This document shows, one piece after another, positions 7,040-31,100 of a stretch of DNA of 35,013 bases; within the stretch, counting starts at the first letter, position 1; every line of letters begins with the position of its first letter. The DNA is taken from positions 1 to 35,013 of IMG/VR virus record IMGVR_UViG_3300044626_000768; one strand, written 5' to 3'. This DNA comes from a virus. Both the position numbers and the translations under genes were made by a program. The notes below the pieces were generated by a model. It was not told where the DNA came from. It did no database searches and saw nothing but the letters and a program-made list of their open reading frames with translations.

Positions 7040-7134
7040 GCGCTCGACCGCAGCAAGAGGCCTTATCTGAAATGCTACTAAGAAACAAGCTATCAGATCC
7101 TATCCAACGCCTTATTAACTATTAAATTATTCCC

Positions 7135-7162
7135 AAAAAAAGCCTGGGTGTTACCCCAGGCC
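7135..7162 (-). terminator. intrinsic terminator after the scaffold gene
   Basis: On the minus strand, GCCTGGGG and CCCAGGC form a GC-rich hairpin followed by seven T. It ends the terminase-portal-scaffold transcript 20 nt after the scaffold stop, so the capsid gene needs its own promoter or read-through. Confidence 0.8.
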
Positions 7163-7181
7163 AACCAAGGAGGAGCTAAGC

Positions 7182-8306
7182 TTACGAATCCATTGCGAGA
7201 ACAGTTCCTCGAAATGCGCCTGCATTTTGTAGGTAGTCAACAATTTTCCAAGCTTCTGCTGGGTTTTGTTGATACGCCTGGCCCAGCATACTAATGTCAA
7301 CGTTCTGGCCAGCTCCAGCAGATTGAGGAGGGGCAGGAAAGCTAGGCCGTTGATAACCGATAGGATCGACCAAACGGCTTGTCGTAGAGTCCAAGCCAGC
7401 GCCATCGGGTTGAATCCGTGGATCATAGCTAGGCTCTTGGCGATAGTTGTAGTCGAACTGCTGACTTTGTTGCATAGCGGCTAATTGTTCCTTTGCTTCA
7501 TCTACAGGATAAGGACCCTCAGGGCCATAGAATTCCATTACATACTGGGCCAACAGATTAGGATCTGTCATTAACTGCCGGGCAGCAGCCATCTGGCTTT
7601 CAGTAGCTTCGAGCTGACCCGCCATATTAACCAGGCCAGCTTCTAGCTCACAAGCAAACTGGTTTACACCATCCAAGGTATAACCAGCAGCTTTTAGCTC
7701 AGCTTCAGACGGATAATAGGCATCAGTCCTTCTTACGCCGCTTAGGGGTAAGTCGCTTCGCGGCGGCTGTGAAGGTCGGGAAGAGTTGTTGTAGGATGCC
7801 TGGTTGGCGGATAAGGTCTGATTCCCCATAGACCGGAGGGGTACTCCCATAGGTTGCCCCTGGAACTGAGGCTGGGCCTGGAGGGGACTCGGACTGGATG
7901 GTTGTACCTGATCCTGGTATTGGGGTTGTGAATTCTGGCGGAAGCTGACCGGCGTTGCCAGCAAATCCAATGCCTTGTTCAGTGCTTGGGCGAATGGGTT
8001 CGAAGAATTCCCATCGGCTGCTGGGCTGTTGTAATTCCCCTGCTGTTGGTAACCCACCATATTGGGAGGGGTCGAGTAACCCTGCGGCATAGCCTGAGGG
8101 GCTGGTGCCTGCTGTTGGGGCACCGGAAACTGGACCACGTTCGTCGCCGGTTGGGCGTACTGGGGCATTTGGGCCGCTGATCCCTGGGTAGGGTAGCTGA
8201 CCTGCTGGGCCTGCGGATAACTGCCCTGCGGGGGTGCTATTGTTATCGGCGGGGATGCCTGACCTTGCACCGAAGGGGCTGTCATCGGTATATACGTTTC
8301 GCTCAT
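7182..8306 (-). CDS. putative scaffolding protein, overlapping the portal gene
   Basis: 374 aa from ATG 8306, which has GAGGA 8 nt upstream; a GTG two codons earlier is less likely. Residues 1-195 are Pro/Gln-rich and disordered, then a helical region (SEAELKAAGYTLDGVNQFAC; LEATESQMAAARQLM) and an acidic C-terminus. Placement between portal and capsid and the helical, disordered make-up match phage scaffolds. The first 584 nt are also read in another frame as the portal C-terminus. Not identified by motif, so scaffold is a positional inference. Confidence 0.6.
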   Translation of the reverse strand: MSETYIPMTAPSVQGQASPPITIAPPQGSYPQAQQVSYPTQGSAAQMPQYAQPATNVVQFPVPQQQAPAPQAMPQGYSTPPNMVGYQQQGNYNSPAADGNSSNPFAQALNKALDLLATPVSFRQNSQPQYQDQVQPSSPSPLQAQPQFQGQPMGVPLRSMGNQTLSANQASYNNSSRPSQPPRSDLPLSGVRRTDAYYPSEAELKAAGYTLDGVNQFACELEAGLVNMAGQLEATESQMAAARQLMTDPNLLAQYVMEFYGPEGPYPVDEAKEQLAAMQQSQQFDYNYRQEPSYDPRIQPDGAGLDSTTSRLVDPIGYQRPSFPAPPQSAGAGQNVDISMLGQAYQQNPAEAWKIVDYLQNAGAFRGTVLAMDS

Positions 8307-10005: not shown

Positions 10006-10488
10006 TCATCGAAGTTCATTGATACGTTCCATATTAAATTGCGATTTTGTTTGCCATACAATCTTGTCGTATAGGGCCATCAATCGGGTAATCAAATCAA
10101 GACTTACATAATCGCATTGATTGTTAGCAATATTGGCACATTCATTGGCGACCATTTTAGCTTTTACTAGATTCTCAGCAAACAATGGCAAAGCTACATT
10201 TTTTTCTGCGGGTAAGGGTATTTCCCCGATTGAACTCCATTGAATTACAGCACTTAGGGCACCCAACGGAAATTCATCTAGTTGTCGAATCCGTTCTGCT
10301 ACTTCATCCTTGAAGTTTGAAAGCAGTTCATAGATGTCTTTAGTCCACTCATGAACCGAAAGAAATGGACAGTCTGTCATATTCCAATGGATTGAATAGG
10401 CTAAAAATTCAAGCTTAATGATGTCAGCAAATACTTGGTTCAAGCATTCCGACATCTTGTACTGATCGGTATTAGTATCCATTGTCAT
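10006..10488 (-). CDS. dps: Dps-like ferritin family protein
   Basis: 160 aa, the usual Dps length. HW at 34-35, H46 in SVHEW, then D61 and E65 in KDEVAERI reproduce the Dps ferroxidase spacing (12, 15 and 4 residues apart, as in the E. coli protein), so the iron-oxidising site looks intact. Dps dodecamers store iron, remove peroxide and often bind DNA. The gene overlaps the upstream gene by 17 nt and precedes the portal, inside the packaging operon and so probably expressed late. The N-terminus is short and not strongly basic, so DNA binding is uncertain. A role in protecting packaged DNA or as a virion component is inference. Confidence 0.85.
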   Translation of the reverse strand: MTMDTNTDQYKMSECLNQVFADIIKLEFLAYSIHWNMTDCPFLSVHEWTKDIYELLSNFKDEVAERIRQLDEFPLGALSAVIQWSSIGEIPLPAEKNVALPLFAENLVKAKMVANECANIANNQCDYVSLDLITRLMALYDKIVWQTKSQFNMERINELR

Positions 10489-18398: not shown

Positions 18399-19070
18399 AT
18401 GACAACCTATAGCAATATAAGTCTATCTTGTATTCATCCAAGCGCTTGCAACTATTTCTCTAAAATCCTTGAATCCACAGGTGATCCTAAGGAGTTATGG
18501 TTTATTGGGCGTGGAACACCCCCGCCTTCTTACCCTATTGATCATTTTATTAAACTAGATAGTCCATACGTGTCTAGGCAACATGCTTGCCTTCGATATT
18601 CAATTATCGATGATTACTGGCAAATTAGACACATTGGCAGTACCCATCCTACTTGGCTAAATGGTACAAAACTAACTGCAAATGAATGGCATGATATTAC
18701 CGAAGGTGCCATTGCTAAGTTTGCAGTAGACGAATGTAAGCTTATATTTTCTTACTACATCGATGATACTATCCAGAATCTACCCTTTTTTGACACTACA
18801 GAAAAGTTACAACAATTACCATCTACCGAGCAGGTTATTGTTCCTGTTCCAGCGTCAACTGTTATTGTTGAGCAAGATCATAAAACACCTTTTTGGCAGG
18901 TAGCTTTTATTGATCAGGTATTTGATGAACTTAGCTCTTTATCAAATACCAAGCTTATAATTTACTTAATGTTCTTTTTGGCTGGTCTAACAATCTTTTT
19001 GTTATACGGTGCCGCAAGCATTCCCAATTTACCTGCCGTTAATCAAGAGGCTCCCCATACTTTTGATTAG
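18399..19070 (+). CDS. FHA-domain membrane protein
   Basis: 223 aa. Residues 34-115 form an FHA domain: IGRG at 36-39, IKLDSPYVSRQHA at 51-63 (Ser59, Arg60, His62) and GSTHPTWLNG at 80-89, the residues that read phosphothreonine. A linker follows, then one strong transmembrane helix at about 185-205 (LIIYLMFFLAGLTIFLLYGA) and a short tail. FHA domains recruit threonine-phosphorylated partners, so it could dock a host or phage phosphoprotein at the membrane. It is followed after 7 nt by the 1266-aa gene, probably co-transcribed. No clear ribosome site. A phage FHA membrane protein is unusual. Confidence 0.85.
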   Translation: MTTYSNISLSCIHPSACNYFSKILESTGDPKELWFIGRGTPPPSYPIDHFIKLDSPYVSRQHACLRYSIIDDYWQIRHIGSTHPTWLNGTKLTANEWHDITEGAIAKFAVDECKLIFSYYIDDTIQNLPFFDTTEKLQQLPSTEQVIVPVPASTVIVEQDHKTPFWQVAFIDQVFDELSSLSNTKLIIYLMFFLAGLTIFLLYGAASIPNLPAVNQEAPHTFD

Positions 19071-23272: not shown

Positions 23273-23603
23273 TATTCCGCCACTCTTTAGCTGTTTGCGA
23301 TCGCATAGGGGTAGCGAAGCGGGGATGATGCGACTCGTGAACAAAGCTGGCTTGGGTTGAGTATCAACCGACAGGCACCGGGAGTCCGAGCCATACCCTT
23401 GAGGGCAGGGGAGACAACCCTATGTAAGGGATTGGGTGTCACGGTTGCGATCGCATCTGAGCGTCAACTGTGGAGTCCCTGCTGGTTATTACCCAGTACG
23501 GCCCCTGGCCTACTGGGATTTTAGGGTAGGTGTTTAAGAGGTAGGGAGCAATCCCTATCTAGTCTGTGATTTGCGATCGCAGATTAGTCCCTCTTACTAG
23601 ATA
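23273..23603 (+). other. non-coding leader region rich in HIP1 sites
   Basis: No open frame of credible length. It contains three GCGATCGC octamers, a hairpin TAGGGAgcaaTCCCTA (23542-23557) and a first copy of the B hairpin. The stretch 23330-23450 is GC-rich and may fold, but I see no tRNA cloverleaf or known RNA family. It is the 5' leader of the small-gene array, or an uncharacterised RNA. Confidence 0.4.
23492..23517 (+). repeat. family B hairpin, copy 1
   Basis: CCCAGTA and TACTGGG enclose an inner GGCC/GGCC stem; followed by ATTTTA. This copy has no gene directly behind it; a second copy lies 86 nt further. Confidence 0.75.
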
Positions 23604-23629
23604 CCCAGTACGGCCCCTGGCCTACTGGG
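23604..23629 (+). repeat. family B hairpin, copy 2
   Basis: Same sequence as copy 1, ending 34 nt before ATG 23664. Confidence 0.75.
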
Positions 23630-23663
23630 ATTTGTTTGTAGTTGTTCTTAAGGAGTATTTCAC

Positions 23664-23897
23664 ATGCGTTACTTTCAATGCCGTGAGGAATTGAGACAGT
23701 TCAAAGAGGCGTGCCCCCAGTGGCATGTCTTTCCTGACCCGGAGGCTCCGGGCTGGATTGTTGTCCCCCACTTTCTTCCTTCCAAGAATTCCCGCGAACT
23801 TACTGCCCTGCGCAGTGAATTGGCGACAGTTGGTATTAACCTCAGGGTTGCCTTCAACCCACAACTCAAGCGCTGGGATATTCTCGGCGCAGTCTAG
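23664..23897 (+). CDS. small hypothetical protein (first array gene)
   Basis: 77 aa with leader TTAAGGAGTATTTCAC before the ATG. Starts MRYFQCREELRQFKEACPQW, ends LKRWDILGAV; a compact alpha/beta protein with several Trp and Pro. No family recognised. Hairpin B lies upstream and hairpin A 7 nt after the stop, the standard cassette plan. An early host-takeover or anti-defence role is plausible from context only. Confidence 0.65.
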   Translation: MRYFQCREELRQFKEACPQWHVFPDPEAPGWIVVPHFLPSKNSRELTALRSELATVGINLRVAFNPQLKRWDILGAV

Positions 23898-23904
23898 TAT
23901 TCAT

Positions 23905-23934
23905 CACCCCAGGGTCTACTCAGGCCTTGGGGTG
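23905..23934 (+). terminator. family A hairpin, copy 1
   Basis: CACCCCAGGG pairs with CCTTGGGGTG around TCTACTCAGG. It starts 7 nt after a stop codon. No T-run here, so termination is uncertain. CATTGTC follows. Confidence 0.6.
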
Positions 23935-23977
23935 CCTATTCGCATTGTCTACCTTCATTCTTTTTGAGGAAAATCTC

Positions 23978-24310
23978 ATGTCTATACAATCTCTTCTCTC
24001 CCAGTATTCCAACCTCCAAACTGAGACTCAAATATTAGAGTCTCTTAGGGAGGAGCTTAAATTATTTACTCCTGTATTTACTCCTGATAATCCTTCTCCA
24101 GTTGAAGCTTTCGAGCGCTTTATCGAAGCGCTCAAAGTTACTGACTGCGTTACTGACTGCAAAAGTCAGTTTGGCTATGTAATCTTTACAGATGAATCTA
24201 GCCATGAAGAGGTTCGCGCAGCTCTTATTAAAGAATGCGAGGAAATTATTAAAAGAGTGGAGGCTCATCGAGCCCTCCTCATGTCCGCCATCAGGGCGGC
24301 TACTTGCTAA
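23978..24310 (+). CDS. helical hypothetical protein
   Basis: 110 aa from ATG 23978, with TTGAGGAAAATCTC upstream; an earlier TTG in frame would run through hairpin A. Helical and acidic, with Cys at 46 and 50 in DCVTDC and a final coiled segment (KECEEIIKRVEAHRALLM). No family recognised. Confidence 0.6.
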   Translation: MSIQSLLSQYSNLQTETQILESLREELKLFTPVFTPDNPSPVEAFERFIEALKVTDCVTDCKSQFGYVIFTDESSHEEVRAALIKECEEIIKRVEAHRALLMSAIRAATC

Positions 24311-24319
24311 CTTCTTTAT

Positions 24320-24352
24320 CACCCCAGGGTCTAACCACTAGGCCTTGGGGTG
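24320..24352 (+). terminator. family A hairpin, copy 2
   Basis: CACCCCAGGG ... CCTTGGGGTG with a 13-nt loop region, 9 nt after the previous stop. Confidence 0.6.
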
Positions 24353-24367
24353 GCTATTCCCATTGTC

Positions 24368-24403
24368 CTCTGTGTTGGTTGCGATCGCAATCCACGCACA
24401 GAG
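24368..24403 (+). repeat. family C hairpin with HIP1 in the loop, copy 1
   Basis: CTCTGTG and CACAGAG flank TTGCGATCGCAA, itself a palindrome containing GCGATCGC. It lies between hairpins A and B. Confidence 0.65.
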
Positions 24404-24409
24404 TATAAT

Positions 24410-24435
24410 CCCAGTACGGCCTCTGGCCTACTGGG
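24410..24435 (+). repeat. family B hairpin, copy 3
   Basis: CCCAGTACGGCCTCTGGCC then TACTGGG and ATTTTTT; 35 nt before ATG 24471. Confidence 0.75.
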
Positions 24436-24470
24436 ATTTTTTCTTAGTTGAACCACTTACGGAGAAGGTT

Positions 24471-24767
24471 ATGAAAGTTGAAAAAATGAAAGTTGTTGTC
24501 TGTGACGTCCGTCACGGGCAATTGATACACTCTCCTGTTATTCCCGGGATTGAATGGTTGGAAATACCCAGCACCCGTACCGAAGCGGGTTCCTATTTTC
24601 AGTACCTTTCGGCTGCCCGCATTCCCGAGTCTCAGTGCTTGGGGTTGCCGGAGCACTGCCGGGTTGCAGACTTTGAGCACGTTGTCTCCCTGAACATTCA
24701 GGGAGAAGATCTTGAAGTCTGTTACCAGGATGCCGAAGGGCATCCTATCCAGTCTACTATTTGGTAG
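24471..24767 (+). CDS. small hypothetical protein
   Basis: 98 aa from ATG 24471 with GGAGAAGGTT directly upstream. Starts MKVEKMKVVVCDVRHGQLIH; beta-rich, ends in VCYQDAEGHPIQSTIW. No known motif. The cassette ends with a conventional terminator and then hairpin A. Confidence 0.6.
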   Translation: MKVEKMKVVVCDVRHGQLIHSPVIPGIEWLEIPSTRTEAGSYFQYLSAARIPESQCLGLPEHCRVADFEHVVSLNIQGEDLEVCYQDAEGHPIQSTIW

Positions 24768-24795
24768 ATTCGGCGTTACCCCCCCCACCCTCCAC

Positions 24796-24819
24796 CCCTA
24801 GCCCTCGCTGGGGGCTTTT
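24796..24819 (+). terminator. intrinsic terminator
   Basis: AGCCC and GGGCT pair, followed by TTTT. From this T-run to 24864 the sequence is repeated at 26685-26734. Confidence 0.6.
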
Positions 24820-24834
24820 GCTTAAATAGGCTAT

Positions 24835-24864
24835 CACCCCAGGGTCTACTCAGGCCTTGGGGTG
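24835..24864 (+). terminator. family A hairpin, copy 3
   Basis: Same 30-nt sequence as copy 1, followed by CATTGTCC. Confidence 0.6.
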
Positions 24865-24881
24865 CCTATTCGCATTGTCCA

Positions 24882-24913
24882 CTGTGCCAGTTGCGATCGC
24901 AATTCACGCACAG
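24882..24913 (+). repeat. family C hairpin with HIP1 in the loop, copy 2
   Basis: CTGTG and CACAG flank GTTGCGATCGCAAT. Confidence 0.6.
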
Positions 24914-24920
24914 AGTATAG

Positions 24921-24946
24921 CCCAGTACGGCCCCTGGCCTACTGGG
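24921..24946 (+). repeat. family B hairpin, copy 4
   Basis: Canonical B sequence, 35 nt before ATG 24982. Confidence 0.75.
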
Positions 24947-24981
24947 ATTGTTCCTTCAATGTAATTAAGGAGTATTTAGTC

Positions 24982-25227
24982 ATGAATGAATTTGTTTCTG
25001 CGACCCGCTGTTCTTGTTCTCAGACTTTGTTTGTTTTTGATGAGGAAACTGGCATCCAGTATCCAATCCATCCTGTTCCTCCGCAGGACAATAGGATATG
25101 CACCCAGATTCTTTATCATGTTCAGAACGAAATAGATTTAGCTACTGGCTGGATCGCTTGCGATGATTTAGAACGAGGCAAAGACATACAGTTCTTGCCT
25201 CTTGCTTATCATCTTTGGCATAAGTAA
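24982..25227 (+). CDS. small hypothetical protein
   Basis: 81 aa, ATG 24982 preceded by TTAAGGAGTATTTAGTC. The N-terminus has CSC after RC (ATRCSCSQTLFVFDEETG), followed by DNRICTQI; four cysteines in all, so metal binding is possible but no classic zinc ribbon is formed. Framed by hairpins B and A. No family recognised. Confidence 0.6.
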   Translation: MNEFVSATRCSCSQTLFVFDEETGIQYPIHPVPPQDNRICTQILYHVQNEIDLATGWIACDDLERGKDIQFLPLAYHLWHK

Positions 25228-25233
25228 TTCTAT

Positions 25234-25267
25234 CACCCCAGGGTCTAACTTACTAGGCTCTGGGGTG
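25234..25267 (+). terminator. family A hairpin, copy 4
   Basis: CACCCCAGGG ... CTCTGGGGTG with a longer loop, 6 nt after the stop. Confidence 0.6.
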
Positions 25268-25283
25268 TCTATTCGCATTGTCC

Positions 25284-25317
25284 TCTGTGCCAGTTGCGAT
25301 CGCAACTCACGCACAGA
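25284..25317 (+). repeat. family C hairpin with HIP1 in the loop, copy 3
   Basis: TCTGTGC and GCACAGA flank AGTTGCGATCGCAACT, so the loop sequence is a longer palindrome here. Confidence 0.65.
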
Positions 25318-25324
25318 TTAGATA

Positions 25325-25350
25325 CCCAGTACGGCCCCTGGCCTACTGGG
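25325..25350 (+). repeat. family B hairpin, copy 5
   Basis: Canonical B sequence, 34 nt before ATG 25385. Confidence 0.75.
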
Positions 25351-25384
25351 ATTTCTTTGTAGTTGTTCTTAAGGAGTATTCCAC

Positions 25385-25603
25385 ATGTTCCATTTCTTCA
25401 GTCATTATTTCAGCACAGCTACTGCCTGGGTCTTAGACCCTTACTGTTGGCTTCTTATTGCCCTAGCTAGTTTAGTCCAATTCTTTCTACCTGGGTGCAA
25501 ACCCCAGGTTAACCCCGATTACACAATCGCATGGGGTTACTACCCCCATGTCTTTTTTATCAGTACCACACTGGGGTTTCTCGGCTTCCTGAGCCATTGG
25601 TAA
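25385..25603 (+). CDS. small membrane protein
   Basis: 72 aa with leader CTTAAGGAGTATTCCAC. Two hydrophobic segments, about residues 20-36 (CWLLIALASLVQFFLPG) and 53-71 (YPHVFFISTTLGFLGFL), predict a two-pass inner-membrane protein. Small phage membrane proteins of this kind may act in superinfection exclusion or lysis control; nothing here shows which. Confidence 0.65.
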   Translation: MFHFFSHYFSTATAWVLDPYCWLLIALASLVQFFLPGCKPQVNPDYTIAWGYYPHVFFISTTLGFLGFLSHW

Positions 25604-25620
25604 GCCTCCTAGTTTCTCAT

Positions 25621-25649
25621 CACCCCAGGGTCTATCTAGGCTCTGGGGT
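25621..25649 (+). terminator. family A hairpin, copy 5
   Basis: CACCCCAGGG ... CTCTGGGGT then TCCTTTTG, a short T-run. Confidence 0.55.
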
Positions 25650-25700
25650 TCCTTTTGTCGTTGCCAGCACTTCCGCTGGTATTGATTTAAGGAGAATAAT

Positions 25701-25874
25701 ATGCTGGTAATTCGCTTTCACAACGATAACTCAGTCACGCCTCTCCAAGGCGCCAACCTTGGCACTCTTGTCCCCGTTTACGGGGATCTCCAGAAGTTAA
25801 TAGCGCTTGCCCGCAAGCGCAGGGAACCCGTCAAGAAGCAATATGCGGGCAATCCGCGACTTCTTGACTACTAA
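25701..25874 (+). CDS. 57-aa basic hypothetical protein
   Basis: ATG 25701 with TTTAAGGAGAATAAT upstream. Starts MLVIRFHNDNSVTPLQG and has a basic middle (LARKRREPVKKQYAG). No family recognised. In place of hairpin B the leader has a short CCAGC/GCTGG hairpin. Its cassette position and strong ribosome site support it as a real gene despite its size. Confidence 0.6.
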   Translation: MLVIRFHNDNSVTPLQGANLGTLVPVYGDLQKLIALARKRREPVKKQYAGNPRLLDY

Positions 25875-25881
25875 TCCTTGT

Positions 25882-25915
25882 CACCCCAGGGTCTATTAAC
25901 TCAGGCTCTGGGGTG
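25882..25915 (+). terminator. family A hairpin, copy 6
   Basis: CACCCCAGGG ... CTCTGGGGTG then CCTTTTG, 7 nt after the stop. Confidence 0.6.
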
Positions 25916-25932
25916 CCTTTTGCTGTTGTCTA

Positions 25933-25964
25933 CTGTTCGTTGTTCGCATTGATAATGTGAACAG
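25933..25964 (+). repeat. family D hairpin, copy 1
   Basis: CTGTTC and GAACAG flank a loop containing GTTGTTCGCATTGATAATG, then CGACTTTT. The second copy has the same loop but a different, still complementary stem. Confidence 0.6.
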
Positions 25965-26006
25965 CGACTTTTAGTTCATTTAATCTTGTCCAAGGAGGAC
26001 AAACTC

Positions 26007-26192
26007 ATGCAATTCATTACTTATTTGACCACTTCGGGGCCAACTAAAGCTCAGGCTGAGCTTTTCTGGTACAACCTTTCTGGTTGCCGTGACGGCTACC
26101 AGGGCCAACCCTGGTACTACGCCGGGGTTGTCACAGAATACGATGTTTACGAAAGTGCTGAGGAGGCTATCGAGGCTGATAGCCTAAATTAG
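26007..26192 (+). CDS. 61-aa hypothetical protein
   Basis: ATG 26007 with CAAGGAGGACAAACTC upstream, the strongest ribosome site in the array. Starts MQFITYLTTSGPTKAQAELF, has aromatic-rich GYQGQPWYYAGV in the middle and an acidic end (ESAEEAIEADSLN). Overall acidic, as small phage inhibitors often are; function unknown. Confidence 0.6.
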   Translation: MQFITYLTTSGPTKAQAELFWYNLSGCRDGYQGQPWYYAGVVTEYDVYESAEEAIEADSLN

Positions 26193-26201
26193 CTTTTCTA
26201 T

Positions 26202-26234
26202 CACCCCAGGGTCTAATCACTAGGCTCTGGGGTG
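26202..26234 (+). terminator. family A hairpin, copy 7
   Basis: CACCCCAGGG ... CTCTGGGGTG then TCTTTTGG. Confidence 0.6.
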
Positions 26235-26245
26235 TCTTTTGGCAT

Positions 26246-26278
26246 TGTCCATCGTTGTTCGCATTAATAATGTGGACA
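26246..26278 (+). repeat. family D hairpin, copy 2
   Basis: TGTCCA and TGGACA flank nearly the same loop as copy 1. The changed stem stays paired, which supports an RNA structure. Confidence 0.6.
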
Positions 26279-26311
26279 GCGACTTTTTGTTCACTTATTA
26301 CAGAGGCAAAG

Positions 26312-26635
26312 ATGCTTTACCTGCAGCCAGGAGAAAAGATAACAGCCAATCGGATCGCTATCGCGTTTGATGAGCGATCTGCTATCGACCTCGGCTACCT
26401 TAATGGTCAGCTTGTCTTCCAGGTCTCCGTGAACGGAAGCCTTGTGGGCTATATTATGCCTCCGCGTGACGGGGGTGCCTGGGGGATAAACCTTTCTCAG
26501 GGAGCGCATGAGCAAAGAGGATATTACCGCCCTATCCTGAGGCAAGCTAACTCTCCGTATGGAGTTGCGATAAGCCATTCCCAGGCGGATATGGATGATC
26601 TAGTCTGGGATCTGCAGTTTTTTGCTCCTCTTTAA
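26312..26635 (+). CDS. small hypothetical protein
   Basis: 107 aa from ATG 26312 (CAGAGGCAAAG upstream). Beta-rich: MLYLQPGEKITANRIAIAFD, LVFQVSVNGSLVGYIMPPRD, then a Gly-rich middle and an acidic end. No family recognised. Followed by a terminator and hairpin A in the same arrangement as the 24471 cassette. Confidence 0.6.
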   Translation: MLYLQPGEKITANRIAIAFDERSAIDLGYLNGQLVFQVSVNGSLVGYIMPPRDGGAWGINLSQGAHEQRGYYRPILRQANSPYGVAISHSQADMDDLVWDLQFFAPL

Positions 26636-26670
26636 GCAACTTACTCCACCCTACCCACCCCACCACCCCG

Positions 26671-26689
26671 GCCCCATGGCTGGGGTTTT
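26671..26689 (+). terminator. intrinsic terminator
   Basis: CCCC and GGGG around ATGGCT, followed by TTTTG; the downstream sequence repeats that at 24815-24864. Confidence 0.5.
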
Positions 26690-26704
26690 GCTTAAATAGG
26701 CTAT

Positions 26705-26734
26705 CACCCCAGGGTCTACTCAGGCCTTGGGGTG
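26705..26734 (+). terminator. family A hairpin, copy 8
   Basis: Same 30-nt core as copies 1 and 3. Confidence 0.6.
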
Positions 26735-26744
26735 TCTATTCCTA

Positions 26745-26769
26745 TTGTGCGATCGCTACCCACGCACAA
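26745..26769 (+). repeat. family C hairpin, divergent copy 4
   Basis: TTGTGCG and CGCACAA form the stem; HIP1 here overlaps the stem and loop rather than lying wholly in the loop. Confidence 0.5.
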
Positions 26770-26777
26770 TACCATTA

Positions 26778-26803
26778 CCCAGTACGGCCTCTGGCCTACT
26801 GGG
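26778..26803 (+). repeat. family B hairpin, copy 6
   Basis: Canonical B sequence followed by ATTTTT, but 67 nt before the next ATG, twice the usual distance. Confidence 0.7.
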
Positions 26804-26870
26804 ATTTTTCACATAATTAACCGCATCGCTACAGCGGTTAATACCCATACAACTATCGAGAGAGAAAGAG

Positions 26871-27302
26871 ATGAAAAGCTATACCCGCCTCATCATGATT
26901 ACATTGACCACTGCCTGGACCACTTGGTACCAGGCTTCCTCCTATGCCTGCGCCATCACCGCATGGCTCGTCCGTGCGATCGCCTTTATGGCGATCTTGA
27001 CCTACCTCCTTGGCAAGGAAGCTCGTGTCTTTGTAGACTCCTTCCTGGAGTCTTGCATGAAGTCACCAACCTCCATGCCCCTTACTCTTCCTACTCCTGC
27101 GCCTACTCCTACTCTTACTACTGCTGCTGAGCCTGCGGGGGATTACCCCGTCCAGGCGCAGATACAACAATTTACTCCTACTCTTGCAGACTTCACGTCT
27201 GCACAATTAAAGGCTATTGCCAAGGAGCATAAGCTCCCTCGGTATAGCCGAATGAATAAGCAGCAGCTCTTTGACGCACTGCTTGAACTTGATTTGATTT
27301 GA
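26871..27302 (+). CDS. membrane protein with Rho-N/SAP-like C-terminal domain
   Basis: 143 aa, leader GAGAGAGAAAGAG. A hydrophobic N-terminus with a transmembrane helix at about 27-47 (ACAITAWLVRAIAFMAILTYLL), a Pro/Thr linker at 65-90, then a helical domain at 106-140 (TSAQLKAIAKEHKLPRYSRM, QQLFDALLEL) matching the Rho N-terminal or SAP fold that binds nucleic acid. It may tether DNA or RNA at the membrane. The AlkB gene's ATG follows its stop immediately (TGAATG), so the two are coupled. Confidence 0.7.
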   Translation: MKSYTRLIMITLTTAWTTWYQASSYACAITAWLVRAIAFMAILTYLLGKEARVFVDSFLESCMKSPTSMPLTLPTPAPTPTLTTAAEPAGDYPVQAQIQQFTPTLADFTSAQLKAIAKEHKLPRYSRMNKQQLFDALLELDLI

Positions 27303-27926
27303 ATGACCCGCCTTGGGAGCAAACTAACCAAGGCATTACGAAGTATCAAAATGATTGAAGAATACTTAGACTACGCCACGCAAGTGTCTCTAGTCTCCTT
27401 GGCTAGAGATATTTGCGTCAGGGCACCCCTGTATAGGGCAGAAATGCCCAACACAGGGAAACCATTCACCTACTACCAGTCTGGTGCCGGATGGGGCTGG
27501 ACATCTGGCCATGGTGGCGGCTACCGCTACCAAACCACCCATCCTGTTACTGGGGCTACCTTACCGCAGATTCCTGATCAACTACTTGACATAGCCCGTA
27601 AACACGGGCTGGAGGCGGATAGCCTCCTAATTAACTGGTACACTCCAGGGTCATCCCTGGGGCTGCACCGGGATAAAGACGAGAAGTATCGGCATCCAAT
27701 AGTTTCCATCTCACTGGGAGATCATGCGATATTCCAGTTGGGTGGAAACATTCGCTCTGCCAGAACTACTGACATAGAGCTGATCTCTGGATCAGTTCTA
27801 ATTATGTCTGGCAACAATCGTTCCCGCTTCCACGGGATCAAGACAATCTTACCTAACACCTGTATCCACCCAGGCTTGCTTAAGCAGCCTGGCCGGATCA
27901 ACCTGACTCTCCGCAGGAGTCAGTGA
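27303..27926 (+). CDS. alkB: AlkB-like 2-oxoglutarate/Fe(II) dioxygenase
   Basis: 207 aa. The iron-binding triad is His122 and Asp124 in LHRDKDE and His177 in SRFHGIK; Arg198 and Arg204 in GRINLTLRR bind 2-oxoglutarate. PIVSISLGDHAIFQLGG (132-148) and LISGSVLIMSGNNR (160-173) match AlkB core strands. AlkB enzymes repair methylated bases by oxidative demethylation. All catalytic residues are present, so activity is expected. It is translationally linked to the upstream membrane protein. It may protect phage nucleic acid from alkylation or act on a modified host target; substrate is unknown. An internal ATG at 27351 is an alternative start. Confidence 0.93.
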   Translation: MTRLGSKLTKALRSIKMIEEYLDYATQVSLVSLARDICVRAPLYRAEMPNTGKPFTYYQSGAGWGWTSGHGGGYRYQTTHPVTGATLPQIPDQLLDIARKHGLEADSLLINWYTPGSSLGLHRDKDEKYRHPIVSISLGDHAIFQLGGNIRSARTTDIELISGSVLIMSGNNRSRFHGIKTILPNTCIHPGLLKQPGRINLTLRRSQ

Positions 27927-27935
27927 ACAAGAATG

Positions 27936-27961
27936 CCCGGTACGGCCTCTGGCCTACCGGG
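27936..27961 (+). repeat. family B hairpin, variant copy 7
   Basis: The stem is CCCGGTA/TACCGGG in place of CCCAGTA/TACTGGG: a compensated A-T to G-C change. It ends 18 nt before ATG 27980. Confidence 0.7.
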
Positions 27962-27979
27962 TTTCATCGAGGTAATCAA

Positions 27980-28066
27980 ATGATCGAAGGAATCATCGCT
28001 TTTAAGCTATTACTTTTTGCCTATCGAGTCTGCGATCGCAGCACTCGAACAAAAGACAAAAAGTAG
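27980..28066 (+). CDS. 28-aa small protein
   Basis: ATG 27980 with GAGGTAATCAA upstream; encodes MIEGIIAFKLLLFAYRVCDR and a basic tail TRTKDKK. A short hydrophobic start with a positive C-terminus suggests a membrane-associated microprotein. Its reality rests on the ribosome site and on hairpin B on either side; it contains a HIP1 site. Confidence 0.4.
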   Translation: MIEGIIAFKLLLFAYRVCDRSTRTKDKK

Positions 28067-28094
28067 ACACGCAATAGTCCCATCTTCGAACCTG

Positions 28095-28120
28095 CCCGGT
28101 ACGGCCTCTGGCCTACCGGG
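28095..28120 (+). repeat. family B hairpin, variant copy 8
   Basis: Same compensated CCCGGTA/TACCGGG stem with a TTTTTT tail, 34 nt before ATG 28155. Confidence 0.7.
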
Positions 28121-28154
28121 TTTTTTAGAAAGAGTTAACTTGATTTGATTTGAT

Positions 28155-28292
28155 ATGAATACCACAGAACCCACTGAACTTCCTACGATTCCCGTGACTG
28201 CTGACCCCTTGTCGGCAGGGCTCTTCGTCGCTACGGCGATCATCCCAATCACCGCTGGAATTATCCAGCTAAAGAAAAAGAATAAGAAATAA
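28155..28292 (+). CDS. 45-aa single-pass membrane protein
   Basis: ATG 28155; polar Thr/Pro/Glu N-terminus, then a hydrophobic helix at about 20-37 (LSAGLFVATAIIPITAGIIQ) and a basic tail KKKNKK, giving an outside-N, inside-C topology. No strong ribosome site. Fits the cassette plan, with hairpin B before and a hairpin A variant after. Function unknown. Confidence 0.5.
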   Translation: MNTTEPTELPTIPVTADPLSAGLFVATAIIPITAGIIQLKKKNKK

Positions 28293-28296
28293 CATC

Positions 28297-28325
28297 ACCG
28301 GCTTGGGGCATCTGCTCCAGCCGGT
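28297..28325 (+). terminator. family A variant hairpin, copy 9
   Basis: ACCGGCT/AGCCGGT closes an inner GGGGC..GCTCC stem; followed by CCCTTTTCGCATTGTC. It is in the same place as family A with a different sequence. Confidence 0.55.
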
Positions 28326-28362
28326 CCCTTTTCGCATTGTCGAATTAAGGAGAATTTTATTT

Positions 28363-28530
28363 ATGTATATCCACCACCAAGAAACTTCCCTTAACCCAGG
28401 TTCCTGGGTTACTACCTACTGTCCGGATCGCAGGACGGCAAGGGCTGTAATGTTGCGCCTTACGGCCAACAATCTCCCTTTCATGGTGGCCCCTGACCAC
28501 CTCACCCCTTGGAACTATTCCTATAACTAA
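28363..28530 (+). CDS. 55-aa hypothetical protein
   Basis: ATG 28363 after TTAAGGAGAATTTTATTT. Starts MYIHHQETSLNPGSWVTTYC, includes a DRRTARAVMLRL helix and ends in aromatic NYSYN. No family recognised. It shares one transcript with the next gene, 13 nt away with its own AAGGAG. Confidence 0.55.
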   Translation: MYIHHQETSLNPGSWVTTYCPDRRTARAVMLRLTANNLPFMVAPDHLTPWNYSYN

Positions 28531-28543
28531 GGAGAAAAACACT

Positions 28544-28726
28544 ATGCTTCAGATAGATTACGGTTTTGACCTGCAATCCTTCGATGTTGAAGATTCAATG
28601 ATTGATATACTTCACCAGAATTTTGACACTCGTGAATGGACTACTACCTCGCTCCATGAGAGCGAAGTCTTGAACTTCCAAAATGAACTTGACTCTCTTG
28701 GCCTAGACTACTTACCTGTAGTTTAG
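28544..28726 (+). CDS. 60-aa acidic hypothetical protein
   Basis: ATG 28544 with AAGGAGAAAAACACT upstream. Strongly acidic (MLQIDYGFDLQSFDVEDSMI, then FQNELDSLGLDYLPVV), possibly a DNA-mimic or inhibitor type by charge alone. No family recognised. Confidence 0.55.
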   Translation: MLQIDYGFDLQSFDVEDSMIDILHQNFDTREWTTTSLHESEVLNFQNELDSLGLDYLPVV

Positions 28727-28736
28727 GCATCTGATC

Positions 28737-28765
28737 ACCGGCCTGGGGCAACTGCTCCAGCCGGT
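28737..28765 (+). terminator. family A variant hairpin, copy 10
   Basis: ACCGGC/GCCGGT with inner GGGGC..GCTCC, followed by TTTCTTTTCTCATTGCC; 10 nt after the stop. Confidence 0.55.
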
Positions 28766-28775
28766 TTCTTTTCTC

Positions 28776-28810
28776 ATTGCCGAAAGGCATTAAACCAATC
28801 TAAGGTATTC
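28776..28810 (+). repeat. SSB leader repeat, copy 1
   Basis: A 35-nt leader, identical to 29330-29364, containing GCCGAAAGGC and TCTAAGGTATTC; it runs to the start of the first SSB gene. Confidence 0.8.
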
Positions 28811-28812
28811 TT

Positions 28813-29280
28813 ATGTCCTCACGTGGCCTAAACGTTTGCACTCTCGCCGGCAACCTCGCCGCTGACCCCGAGATTCGTACCATTCCTCTTCGGGATGGTA
28901 CATCTACTCAGGTAGCCGATCTAACCATCTATGTCGATCGCATTCCCAGTCGTAAGGAGAATGACAGCTTTACTGTCGATATTACCGTATGGGAAGGCTC
29001 TGCCGCCTGGCGTAAGCTAGGCTACATCAAGAAAGGTTCCCTGATTATTGCCAGTGGAGCCATTGATGCTTCTCCATACGTCAGGAAGGTTGACAGTCAG
29101 GCCCGTGCTGGCTTGAAGCTTAAGGCTACTGACATCTTCCTTGACTCCAGTCCAAGAGTTGAAGAGTCCGACCCTCAGACTGAAGCTTCTCTTGAGGAGC
29201 AAACTCCTGTACAGGAGGAAGCGCCTAAAACCCGCCGCCGTTCTTCTAAGAAGGAGGAATTAGCGGCAACTGTTAGCTAA
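28813..29280 (+). CDS. ssb: single-stranded DNA-binding protein, paralogue 1
   Basis: 155 aa, one OB-fold. NVCTLAGNLAADPEIR at the N-terminus is the SSB signature first strand, followed by ADLTIYVDR, FTVDITVWEGSAAWRKLGYI and KGSLIIASGAI. The C-terminus is not the usual acidic tip: after a Glu-rich linker it ends basic (TRRRSSKKEELAATVS), so it may not recruit the usual SSB partners. It covers single-stranded DNA in replication or recombination. The paralogue downstream keeps the canonical tip. Confidence 0.88.
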   Translation: MSSRGLNVCTLAGNLAADPEIRTIPLRDGTSTQVADLTIYVDRIPSRKENDSFTVDITVWEGSAAWRKLGYIKKGSLIIASGAIDASPYVRKVDSQARAGLKLKATDIFLDSSPRVEESDPQTEASLEEQTPVQEEAPKTRRRSSKKEELAATVS

Positions 29281-29291
29281 TTAACTCTATC

Positions 29292-29325
29292 GCTGGGTAG
29301 GATATAGTTCCTGCCCAGCACCTTT
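29292..29325 (+). terminator. terminator between the SSB genes
   Basis: GCTGGG/CCCAGC with inner AGGA/TCCT, followed by ACCTTTTTC. It limits read-through, so the second SSB gene probably has separate control from the repeated leader. Confidence 0.65.
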
Positions 29326-29329
29326 TTCT

Positions 29330-29364
29330 ATTGCCGAAAGGCATTAAACCAATCTAAGGTATTC
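29330..29364 (+). repeat. SSB leader repeat, copy 2
   Basis: Identical to 28776-28810; the match continues through the first 30 or so coding bases with one or two differences. Confidence 0.8.
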
Positions 29365-29366
29365 CT

Positions 29367-29756
29367 ATGTCCTCACGTGGCCTAAACGTTTGTACTCTTG
29401 CCGGGAATGTGGCTGCTACTCCTGTACTCAAGGAGCTGCAAGGCGGCAATGAACTCGCTGAGTTCACTATGTATGTTGACCGCGTTCCTAGTCGCAAGGA
29501 AAATGACAGTTTTACCATTAAGGTTACTGTCTGGGCTGGTACAGCAGCTTTTCGAAAGATCGCTTACATCGATAAAGGAAGCCTCATTATTGTCACTGGC
29601 AAGATTGATGCTTCTCCTTACATCGCTAAAACTGATGGTAACCCCCGTGCTGGCTTGCAAGTTACTGCTGCGGACATCTTCCTGGACTCCAGTCCTCGGA
29701 ATCAGGATGAGGCTCCTGCCTCTGCTGACAATTTCGATGACATTCCTTTTAGCTAA
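29367..29756 (+). CDS. ssb: single-stranded DNA-binding protein, paralogue 2
   Basis: 129 aa, OB-fold with NVCTLAGNVAATPVLK, AEFTMYVDRVPSRKEND, FTIKVTVWAGTAAFRKIAYI and KGSLIIVTGKI. It ends in NFDDIPFS, close to the canonical DDIPF tip that docks replication and repair proteins. The N-terminal MSSRGLNVCTLAGN is identical to paralogue 1, and both share ASPY and FLDSSPR, so this is a tandem duplication. This copy is the better candidate for the replicative SSB. Confidence 0.9.
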   Translation: MSSRGLNVCTLAGNVAATPVLKELQGGNELAEFTMYVDRVPSRKENDSFTIKVTVWAGTAAFRKIAYIDKGSLIIVTGKIDASPYIAKTDGNPRAGLQVTAADIFLDSSPRNQDEAPASADNFDDIPFS

Positions 29757-29772
29757 TCCCTTACTCTAGTTG

Positions 29773-29798
29773 TCGCCCCTAGCATTAGCTGGGGGTGA
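29773..29798 (+). terminator. family E hairpin, copy 1
   Basis: TCGCCCC pairs with GGGGTGA around an AGC/GCT inner stem, followed by TTTCTT. Confidence 0.6.
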
Positions 29799-29826
29799 TT
29801 TCTTGTTGCAATTCACACATTTAACT

Positions 29827-30210
29827 ATGAACGAATCAGTTTGTCAAAAAGCGAAAGCCATACTAGATCGGAGAATCGCCTGTGCCGATCAAGGCGATGA
29901 TCCTTTTAACCCTCTTATTGACCACTTAATTCTTTTTAACGCCTTCAACTTTGAACATGATGGCATCCACTATCATGTCACCCGAGATGGAACTCCAATA
30001 TCACTGAGTGATATTACATACTCTCATCTTGTAAACATTATTTCCTACATAGACAGGCTTGTTCCTGCCGAAGGTCTTTCTATCCAAGAAAAGTCTTGGG
30101 ATGGCGACCATGTAGACTTGTTACACTTTTCTTCTCGCGAAGAAATACTTCAAAGATGGAAATTCCATCTTTATCAAGAAGAACTTAACCGTAGACAACT
30201 TCAGACTTGA
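29827..30210 (+). CDS. hypothetical protein
   Basis: 127 aa from ATG 29827; a TTG at 29770 would translate hairpin E, so it is rejected. Helical and acidic, with His-rich HDGIHYHVTRDG in the middle and a basic C-terminal helix (EEILQRWKFHLYQEELNRR). Poor ribosome site. Not recognised. Hairpin E on both sides. Confidence 0.55.
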   Translation: MNESVCQKAKAILDRRIACADQGDDPFNPLIDHLILFNAFNFEHDGIHYHVTRDGTPISLSDITYSHLVNIISYIDRLVPAEGLSIQEKSWDGDHVDLLHFSSREEILQRWKFHLYQEELNRRQLQT

Positions 30211-30216
30211 GCACTG

Positions 30217-30242
30217 TCACCCCTGGCTAATGCTGGGGGTGA
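30217..30242 (+). terminator. family E hairpin, copy 2
   Basis: TCACCCC/GGGGTGA around TGGCTAATGCTG, followed by TTTCC. Confidence 0.6.
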
Positions 30243-30277
30243 TTTCCAACTCTAATTCATCCATTTACTTTTTACCT

Positions 30278-30601
30278 ATGGCAAAAATCACTTTACCAAT
30301 CTTCTCCGAAGCTGTTAATAAATCTCTGTCTGAACTCGCCCCTTATTACGCTGATGGCCAAGCTGACAGGATTGACACAAGATACGTATACTCAGATCGA
30401 CTTTCATCTATCAAAGTTATTTACAACCAATCTACGCTAAAGCTTCTTTTTCAAGAAGCTATTTATGAATCAGAAGAAGTCTATGATTTGGATCAATGCC
30501 TTCAGAGCATTATCTATCAATGGATTGAAGATTATCCAGAAGTGGCGACCAAAACAAAAGAACTACGAGCAAAGATGATTAAAGATCTTCCTGGATTTTA
30601 A
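30278..30601 (+). CDS. hypothetical protein
   Basis: 107 aa from ATG 30278 (MAKITLPIFSEAVNKSLSEL). Helical, with Tyr-rich YVYSDRLSSIKVIYN and an acidic run YESEEVYDLDQ, ending in a basic helix. No family recognised. No good ribosome site; the alternative TTG at 30230 lies in hairpin E. Confidence 0.55.
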   Translation: MAKITLPIFSEAVNKSLSELAPYYADGQADRIDTRYVYSDRLSSIKVIYNQSTLKLLFQEAIYESEEVYDLDQCLQSIIYQWIEDYPEVATKTKELRAKMIKDLPGF

Positions 30602-30644
30602 CTAGATTCCAATAATTGGGACTTCTTGCCTTAGTTTTATTTTG

Positions 30645-30670
30645 TCACCCCTGGCTAATGCTGGGGGTGA
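30645..30670 (+). terminator. family E hairpin, copy 3
   Basis: As copy 2 but followed by six T, a good terminator; GCATTGTCC follows. Confidence 0.7.
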
Positions 30671-30704
30671 TTTTTTGCATTGTCCAATTTAGGAGAATGC
30701 AATT

Positions 30705-31046
30705 ATGTCTGATATGTATTACGACTATGACCCTTGCTACGACTGTGACTGCCCTGAAAACTACGATCACACCGTAGACGAATCGTTTGATACGTTCTAT
30801 ATTGCTTCCATTCTTGACCAGAATGGTCTTTCCTGGATGACCAGGATTATTCACTCTCTAAAATATTCACAATCACAATCACATTTACTCAGCTTTGCTG
30901 AAGCCTGCGATGCAAGCATGTTATCCAATATTGGCAGAGACCATGGGTGGAGCTGGGTTGATGCCCAGATAATTCTTATTCAAGGCATCAAATTCAGGCT
31001 TAGCCTTTTCCCTCAACAACTTCCAATTGACGTAGAACCGTTTTAA
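30705..31046 (+). CDS. hypothetical acidic protein with N-terminal cysteines
   Basis: 113 aa with TTTAGGAGAATGCAATT leader. The N-terminus is Asp/Tyr/Cys-rich (MYYDYDPCYDCDCPENYDH: three Cys with nearby acids and His), possibly metal-binding; the rest is helical (SWMTRIIHSLKYSQ; WVDAQIILIQGIKF). Not recognised. It closes the hairpin array and is followed by a strong terminator. Confidence 0.55.
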   Translation: MSDMYYDYDPCYDCDCPENYDHTVDESFDTFYIASILDQNGLSWMTRIIHSLKYSQSQSHLLSFAEACDASMLSNIGRDHGWSWVDAQIILIQGIKFRLSLFPQQLPIDVEPF

Positions 31047-31065
31047 TCTTCTACGGTGGTCTGAT

Positions 31066-31100
31066 CTCACTCCCACTTAATTGTGGGAGTGAGTTTTTTT
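31066..31100 (+). terminator. strong intrinsic terminator ending the array
   Basis: CTCACTCCCAC/GTGGGAGTGAG, a perfect 11-bp stem with TTAATT loop and seven T. Confidence 0.88.

Follow-up and report, generated by a model that had tools for sequence, protein, structure and literature searches.

The DNA analysed here, referred to as the window, is the whole of the virus record IMGVR_UViG_3300044626_000768 in IMG/VR (35,013 bases). Between 23.49 and 28.78 kb it holds an array of 14 plus-strand open reading frames (ORFs), 13 of them encoding at most 143 amino acids (aa) and one an AlkB-like oxygenase, with repeated hairpins between them (Table 1). The array genes have no sequence in common with one another. 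The original prediction, made from the sequence alone, was of at least ten tiny genes laid out as cassettes between conserved hairpins. Repeat, ORF and fold analyses confirm that repeated hairpins frame an array of small genes and that the hairpins are conserved where the genes are not; the gene at 27303-27926, however, codes for a known 2OG-Fe(II) oxygenase and is not tiny. In our reading, which we consider rather probable, the array would be punctuated by leaky terminators and leader hairpins that also supply homology for recombination.

The hairpins fall into five families. Hairpin A is present in eight array copies (23905-26734) with a 13-bp stem (CACCCCAGGGTCT, a short loop, AGGCYYTGGGGTG), in which the 5' arm is invariant and the loop variable. 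Hairpin B (CCCRGTACGGCCYCTGGCCTACYGGG) likewise has eight copies (23492-28120) and an 11-bp stem with one bulge; it contains one covarying pair, and two of the eight copies (27936 and 28095) carry a double compensatory change from A-U to G-C. Hairpin C bears the HIP1 palindrome (GCGATCGC) at its apex and occurs four times (24368, 24882, 25284 and 26743), and two looser C-like hairpins with HIP1 and other outer stems lie at 23559 and 28024. Hairpins D and E have two copies apiece. HIP1 itself is found at 11 sites in the window, against 0.23 expected, nine of them within 23.3-28.0 kb, and in seven of the eight B copies a HIP1 site starts 28-63 nucleotides (nt) upstream of the hairpin. Most hairpins fold much better than shuffled sequences, with single-strand z-scores of -3.3 to -6.7 for the tested copies of A to E. 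A scan against Rfam gave no match in the array that exceeded the gathering score, and the segment at 23285-23490, considered as a structured leader RNA, folds no better than shuffles.

The placement of the hairpins is equally regular. Of the 24 hairpins tabulated for this test (all copies of A, B, D and E and four of C), none overlaps an ORF, though the stretch is 69% coding, and zero overlap was equalled in 91 of 20,000 circular shifts. The predicted cassette order of A, then C or D, then B is seen as a full A-C-B series in four linkers only (before genes 24471, 24982, 25385 and 26871); elsewhere there are variants, namely two linkers with A-D, one with A alone, one with A and an unrelated hairpin, two with B in the absence of A, and two with E. 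Five of the eight A copies start 6-9 nt after the stop codon and a sixth starts 17 nt after it; the remaining two, at 67-69 nt, have an extra terminator-like hairpin in front. Hairpin E also sits after stops. From the end of hairpin B to the ATG there are 34-35 nt in five of the seven gene-linked copies, most of these leaders being unlike in sequence. The sequence of this interval is not conserved, except between genes 23664 and 25385, whose 69-nt leaders are 97% identical right up to the ATG, the genes themselves being unrelated; B copies 2 and 5 are related by descent, and the linker is duplicated beside unrelated genes.

In every hairpin class the plus-strand tail is richer in T than its minus-strand counterpart (A, 1.42 versus 0.56; B, 2.54 versus 1.24; C, 0.92 versus 0.29; D, 2.42 versus 0.53; E, 2.03 versus 0.67), so that the hairpins share one strand direction. 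Terminator-like sites number 39 over 17-35 kb, compared with 15.6 +/- 3.5 in shuffles (2.5 times chance). Beyond 28780 the pattern of a stop, a hairpin and a T-rich tail that closes with CATTGTC or a similar sequence persists with other hairpin sequences (29292, 30644), and the hairpin-A model also picks out the hairpin at 30644, which has a T run and an identical GCATTGTCC tail. Post-stop terminator-like hairpins of other sequences occur over 29292-31093 at 29292, 29772, 30216, 30644 and 31066, those at 29772, 30216 and 30644 being alike.

Most of the array ORFs are probably coding, since the annotated frame has the top codon score among the three forward frames in all 14 ORFs and beats all five other frames in 10 of them. 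The 28-aa ORF at 27980 may not be a gene. The only recognisable products are the AlkB-like oxygenase and a protein with a Rho_N domain. For ten mini-proteins, searches of Pfam, PHROGs, NCBIfam, phages and plasmids yielded no clear homolog; the 60-aa protein (E 0.013) and the 107-aa protein (E 0.078) have weak PHROG matches. Single-sequence AlphaFold2 models of two of the longer mini-proteins were poor (Table 1). Roles of the mini-genes in anti-defence or takeover are possible.

TerL and portal of the window are both homologous to those of Synechococcus phage S-EIV1 (KJ410740), at 39% identity, which upholds the predicted cyanophage identity. The portal was assigned to phrog_20475 and has many relatives in IMG/VR at about 35% identity. 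Judged by these two proteins, the virus is an S-EIV1-like cyanophage and not a T4-type phage. The window is most likely a piece of a bigger genome, as the S-EIV1 genome measures 79 kb. Hairpins A and B are absent from S-EIV1 and from the 80 relative loci searched. Over whole records, the window has 1.20 perfect-stem hairpins per kb, with repeat families of eight, three and two; in S-EIV1 and the ten long relatives compared, the density is 0.11-0.59 per kb and families do not exceed two members. From this difference the array seems peculiar to this branch, the compared relatives being distant and possibly fragments; it is known from one fragmentary genome, for which no close relative was found.

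Outside the window, hairpin A was found once, in two IMG/VR records that are 99.999% identical over 89 kb and therefore count as one virus, termed G2 (L008). G2 shares with the window a single-strand binding protein at 45% identity and a few small stretches, and shares neither TerL nor portal; it carries an ORF of 5072 aa, probably the tape measure, and is otherwise unrelated to the window virus. To the left of its hairpin A lies a gene end resembling window positions 26147-26192 (the end of gene 26007), and to the right come the linker that follows A at 25882 and the leader of gene 26007, behind which another ORF begins; hairpin D is missing from the junction. The identity between G2 and the window around A is 81-92%, so contamination is not the explanation. 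This A linker is a chimera that joins parts of two linkers of the window, a single case but good evidence for cassette exchange, and the position of A between other genes fits what cassette exchange predicts. In G2, hairpin A stands between two genes behind one TTGACA-17-TAGAAT promoter, which suggests that it is at least partly read through. Two 170-bp copies, 91% identical, bracket the hairpin-A unit of G2 (about 5760-5929 and 7059-7228); each has a TTGACA-17-TAGAAT promoter ahead of a small gene, and this is a different repeated linker.

The proposed search for the hairpins in other viruses was answered for A by G2, where it lies among different genes; B, D, E and the full hairpin C were seen in this genome only. 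Two of the four first matches to A (L010 and L011) were dismissed for lack of the 3' arm, and genome contigs contained no hairpin A. The B core had one match in viral contigs, rejected as an incomplete hairpin, and the D and E patterns had none there. Ten matches to the C pattern were obtained in genomes; the five inspected (four cyanobacterial, one in a planctomycete metagenome-assembled genome) lacked the C hairpin context and look like chance, and no hairpin C with its fold was seen outside this genome. In 386 cyanobacterial genomes the hairpin-A model gave one weak match, to a hairpin of the host that resembles a terminator and has a comparable tail, and the hairpin-B model gave near-threshold matches in ten cyanobacterial genomes, which were not inspected. 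The array DNA had no match among phages and plasmids, and the single-strand binding protein, used as bait for relatives bearing similar arrays, recovered G2 alone. The patterns that the original prediction named as contrary to it (the same genes lacking the hairpins, or the hairpins tied to one fixed gene set) were not seen, a weak test given that no close relative was found.

We propose that the array is a variable region of an S-EIV1-like cyanophage, in which duplicated punctuation linkers flank small unrelated genes. Hairpins A and E would be leaky intrinsic terminators, forming 3'-end hairpins just past the stops; B and D would be T-tailed hairpins within the leader of the next gene, with C and its HIP1 in between. 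RNA polymerase arriving from upstream would be partly stopped or paused at every linker, and these partial stops would insulate the genes from one another and grade their expression along the array. Being alike and lying outside the genes, the linkers could also serve as recombination homology, by which genes may be swapped, gained and lost with the punctuation undisturbed. A published cyanobacterial transcriptome offers precedents: termination is intrinsic and Synechococcus elongatus has no Rho homolog, partial terminators within operons reduce downstream transcription, and RNA polymerase peaks show enrichment at HIP1 (PMC3219970). The anatomy, placement and strand direction of the hairpins, the duplicated linkers, the junction in G2 and the lack of detectable sigma70 promoters are observed; actual termination, HIP1 pausing, graded expression and exchange by homologous recombination are inferred.

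Several observations weigh against this proposal. Exchange between viruses is represented by one junction and by hairpin A alone, and as the 5' arm of A is invariant, covariation offers no support for that hairpin. Weak tails (CCTATTCG) follow several of the A copies, and in two cases A is itself preceded by another terminator-like hairpin. Finally, a terminator-like B that stands before the ribosome site and is followed by no promoter would shut off the gene it precedes, unless it is leaky or overcome.

Alternatively, each linker might combine a terminator with a promoter, making each mini-gene its own transcription unit. An early promoter is the defining part of the promoter early stem-loop (PeSL) cassettes of T4-type phages, reportedly described by Arbiol in 2010 and Comeau in 2014, and the layout here is similar; the A-C-B linkers are long enough for a promoter, and a TATAAT at 24404 immediately precedes one B copy. 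The other seven of the eight B copies have no good -10 hexamer ahead of them, however, short linkers (before 28363 and 30705) leave little room, and promoter-like sites over 17-35 kb show no excess over shuffles. A weighted scan for sigma70 promoters likewise found no array linker above chance and one weak candidate at 29281, beyond the array, whereas both TTGACA-17-TAGAAT promoters of G2, its positive control, scored 13.5; sigma70 promoters are thus not detectable in the array. The promoter could still be phage-specific or of a cyanobacterial type with no -35 element, and S. elongatus promoters do lack a -35 motif, so that a weak consensus is indecisive (PMC3219970). On balance we regard such independent units as unlikely.

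The hairpins might instead be elements of RNA processing or stability, a polycistronic RNA being cut in the linkers, which would leave each mini-mRNA with a 5'-terminal B and a 3'-terminal A. The stable folds, the constant interval of 34-35 nt from B to ATG in five copies and the mostly short interval from stop to A would suit this; it does not, however, require T-rich tails on the plus strand, and no conserved cleavage motif was seen, though none was sought. We consider it quite improbable. Very doubtful, too, is a bolder extension of the punctuation model, in which the linkers would be a gene-capture platform of cyanophages whose modules A, B, C and D recombine as DNA units, possibly via HIP1, and in which the position of a captured gene along an attenuated operon with few promoters would also set its dose. 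As for integron cassettes, no integrase was found among the scanned window ORFs, a subset of the ORFs of a 35-kb fragment in which attC motifs were not searched. A selfish origin of the hairpins, as REP- or MITE-like palindromic repeats that have inserted between genes and do nothing for the phage, is highly improbable: there are several short palindromes, HIP1 lies within C, D is cleanly missing in G2 and the hairpins are absent from S-EIV1-like relatives, but their order and their position relative to stops and starts recur, they keep a single strand direction, and no convincing copies occur in the sampled cyanobacterial genomes, plasmids and phages (the ten near-threshold B-model matches being uninspected).

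Table 1. Genes and hairpins of the array, with one related hairpin beyond it (positions in the window)
Feature	Position	Strand	Remarks
Mini-gene, 77 aa	23664-23897	+	no known family
Mini-gene, 110 aa	23978-24310	+	no known family
Mini-gene, 98 aa	24471-24767	+	no known family; poor AlphaFold2 model, pLDDT 41
Mini-gene, 81 aa	24982-25227	+	no known family
Mini-gene, 72 aa, hydrophobic	25385-25603	+	no known family
Mini-gene, 57 aa	25701-25874	+	no known family
Mini-gene, 61 aa	26007-26192	+	last 17 codons matched in G2 (65% identity), remainder unmatched
Mini-gene, 107 aa	26312-26635	+	no known family; poor AlphaFold2 model, pLDDT 49
143-aa protein, C-terminal Rho_N domain	26871-27302	+	PF07498, E 2.5e-8
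AlkB-like 2OG-Fe(II) oxygenase, 207 aa	27303-27926	+	PF13532, E 1.2e-37
Doubtful ORF, 28 aa	27980-28066	+	holds C-like hairpin 28024-28048
Mini-gene, 45 aa	28155-28292	+	
Mini-gene, 55 aa	28363-28530	+	no known family
Mini-gene, 60 aa	28544-28726	+	no known family
Hairpin A, copy 1	23905-23934	+	
Hairpin A, copy 2	24320-24352	+	
Hairpin A, copy 3	24835-24864	+	
Hairpin A, copy 4	25234-25267	+	
Hairpin A, copy 5	25621-25650	+	
Hairpin A, copy 6	25882-25915	+	downstream linker is the one found in G2
Hairpin A, copy 7	26202-26234	+	the gene end ahead of it is matched in G2
Hairpin A, copy 8	26705-26734	+	
Hairpin B, copy 1	23492-23517	+	146 nt before first ATG
Hairpin B, copy 2	23604-23629	+	34 nt before ATG
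Hairpin B, copy 3	24410-24435	+	35 nt before ATG
Hairpin B, copy 4	24921-24946	+	35 nt before ATG
Hairpin B, copy 5	25325-25350	+	34 nt before ATG
Hairpin B, copy 6	26778-26803	+	67 nt before ATG
Hairpin B, copy 7, compensatory A-U to G-C	27936-27961	+	18 nt before ATG of doubtful ORF
Hairpin B, copy 8, compensatory A-U to G-C	28095-28120	+	34 nt before ATG
C-like hairpin with HIP1, different outer stem	23559-23587	+	
Hairpin C with HIP1	24368-24402	+	
Hairpin C with HIP1	24882-24913	+	
Hairpin C with HIP1	25284-25317	+	
Hairpin C with HIP1, different outer stem	26743-26771	+	
C-like hairpin with HIP1	28024-28048	+	within doubtful ORF 27980-28066
Hairpin D, copy 1	25937-25967	+	CTTTT directly after; D is the hairpin missing at the G2 junction
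Hairpin D, copy 2	26252-26282	+	CTTTTT directly after
Hairpin E, copy 1	28297-28325	+	post-stop position
Hairpin E, copy 2	28737-28765	+	post-stop position
Extra terminator-like hairpin ahead of A copy 3	24795-24814	+	
Extra terminator-like hairpin ahead of A copy 8	26665-26686	+	
Terminator-like hairpin with T run	30644-30671	+	picked out by the hairpin-A model; tail GCATTGTCC, as behind A

Elsewhere in the window, tandem genes for single-strand binding proteins (28813-29280 and 29367-29756), 57% identical and with near-identical leaders, follow the array. Two group I introns (5306-5633 and 5915-6190, minus strand) lie beside a fragment of the major head protein, a ferritin/Dps-like gene (10006-10488, minus strand) lies amid packaging genes, the ferritin-like gene of S-EIV1 sitting elsewhere, and 18399-19070 encodes an FHA-domain protein.

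Taken as proposed, the array would mean that gene cassettes bounded by stem-loops, as described for T4-type phages, also occur in a cyanophage lineage unrelated to those phages, where the sequences differ and the composite linker carries the cyanobacterial HIP1 palindrome. Repeated linkers of this kind would help to find, in environmental viruses, small exchangeable genes of unknown function, and the array would provide a testable case of a virus with leaky terminators in a host group whose studied members lack Rho.

Among known systems, the S-EIV1-like cyanophages have TerL and portal homologous to those of the window, with a lower hairpin density and no hairpin family above two. The Cluster K mycobacteriophages carry SAS/ESAS repeats, some of them inverted, upstream of a subset of non-structural genes (PMC3203893). 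As in those phages, repeats that include inverted repeats precede some of the genes here; unlike them, the array has no conserved 13-bp start-associated motif, and its hairpins also sit after stop codons and bear T-rich tails. The partial intrinsic terminators of cyanobacteria similarly place a hairpin and a T-rich tail between co-directional ORFs and lower downstream transcription, but they belong to host genes and form no repeated cassette family (PMC3219970). The PeSL cassettes of T4-type phages are reported to be small unrelated genes with repeated stem-loops between them, through which genes are thought to be shuffled between phages (PMC4503421). The array is alike in that small unrelated genes lie between repeated stem-loops, and in that the intergenic hairpins have the T-rich plus-strand tails of stem-loop terminators. 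It differs in its sequences and in having several hairpins per linker, one with HIP1. As for linkers shared across phages with different genes, a single recombinant A linker was found, in virus G2, and the B, D and E patterns were found in no other viral contigs. The original prediction of a cyanophage counterpart to the T4 cassettes is supported by hairpin A lying between other genes in G2, but the phage is not T4-related and no early sigma70-like promoter was detected in the linkers. The array would thus resemble the PeSL cassettes in the way it works, but it is not a member of that family.

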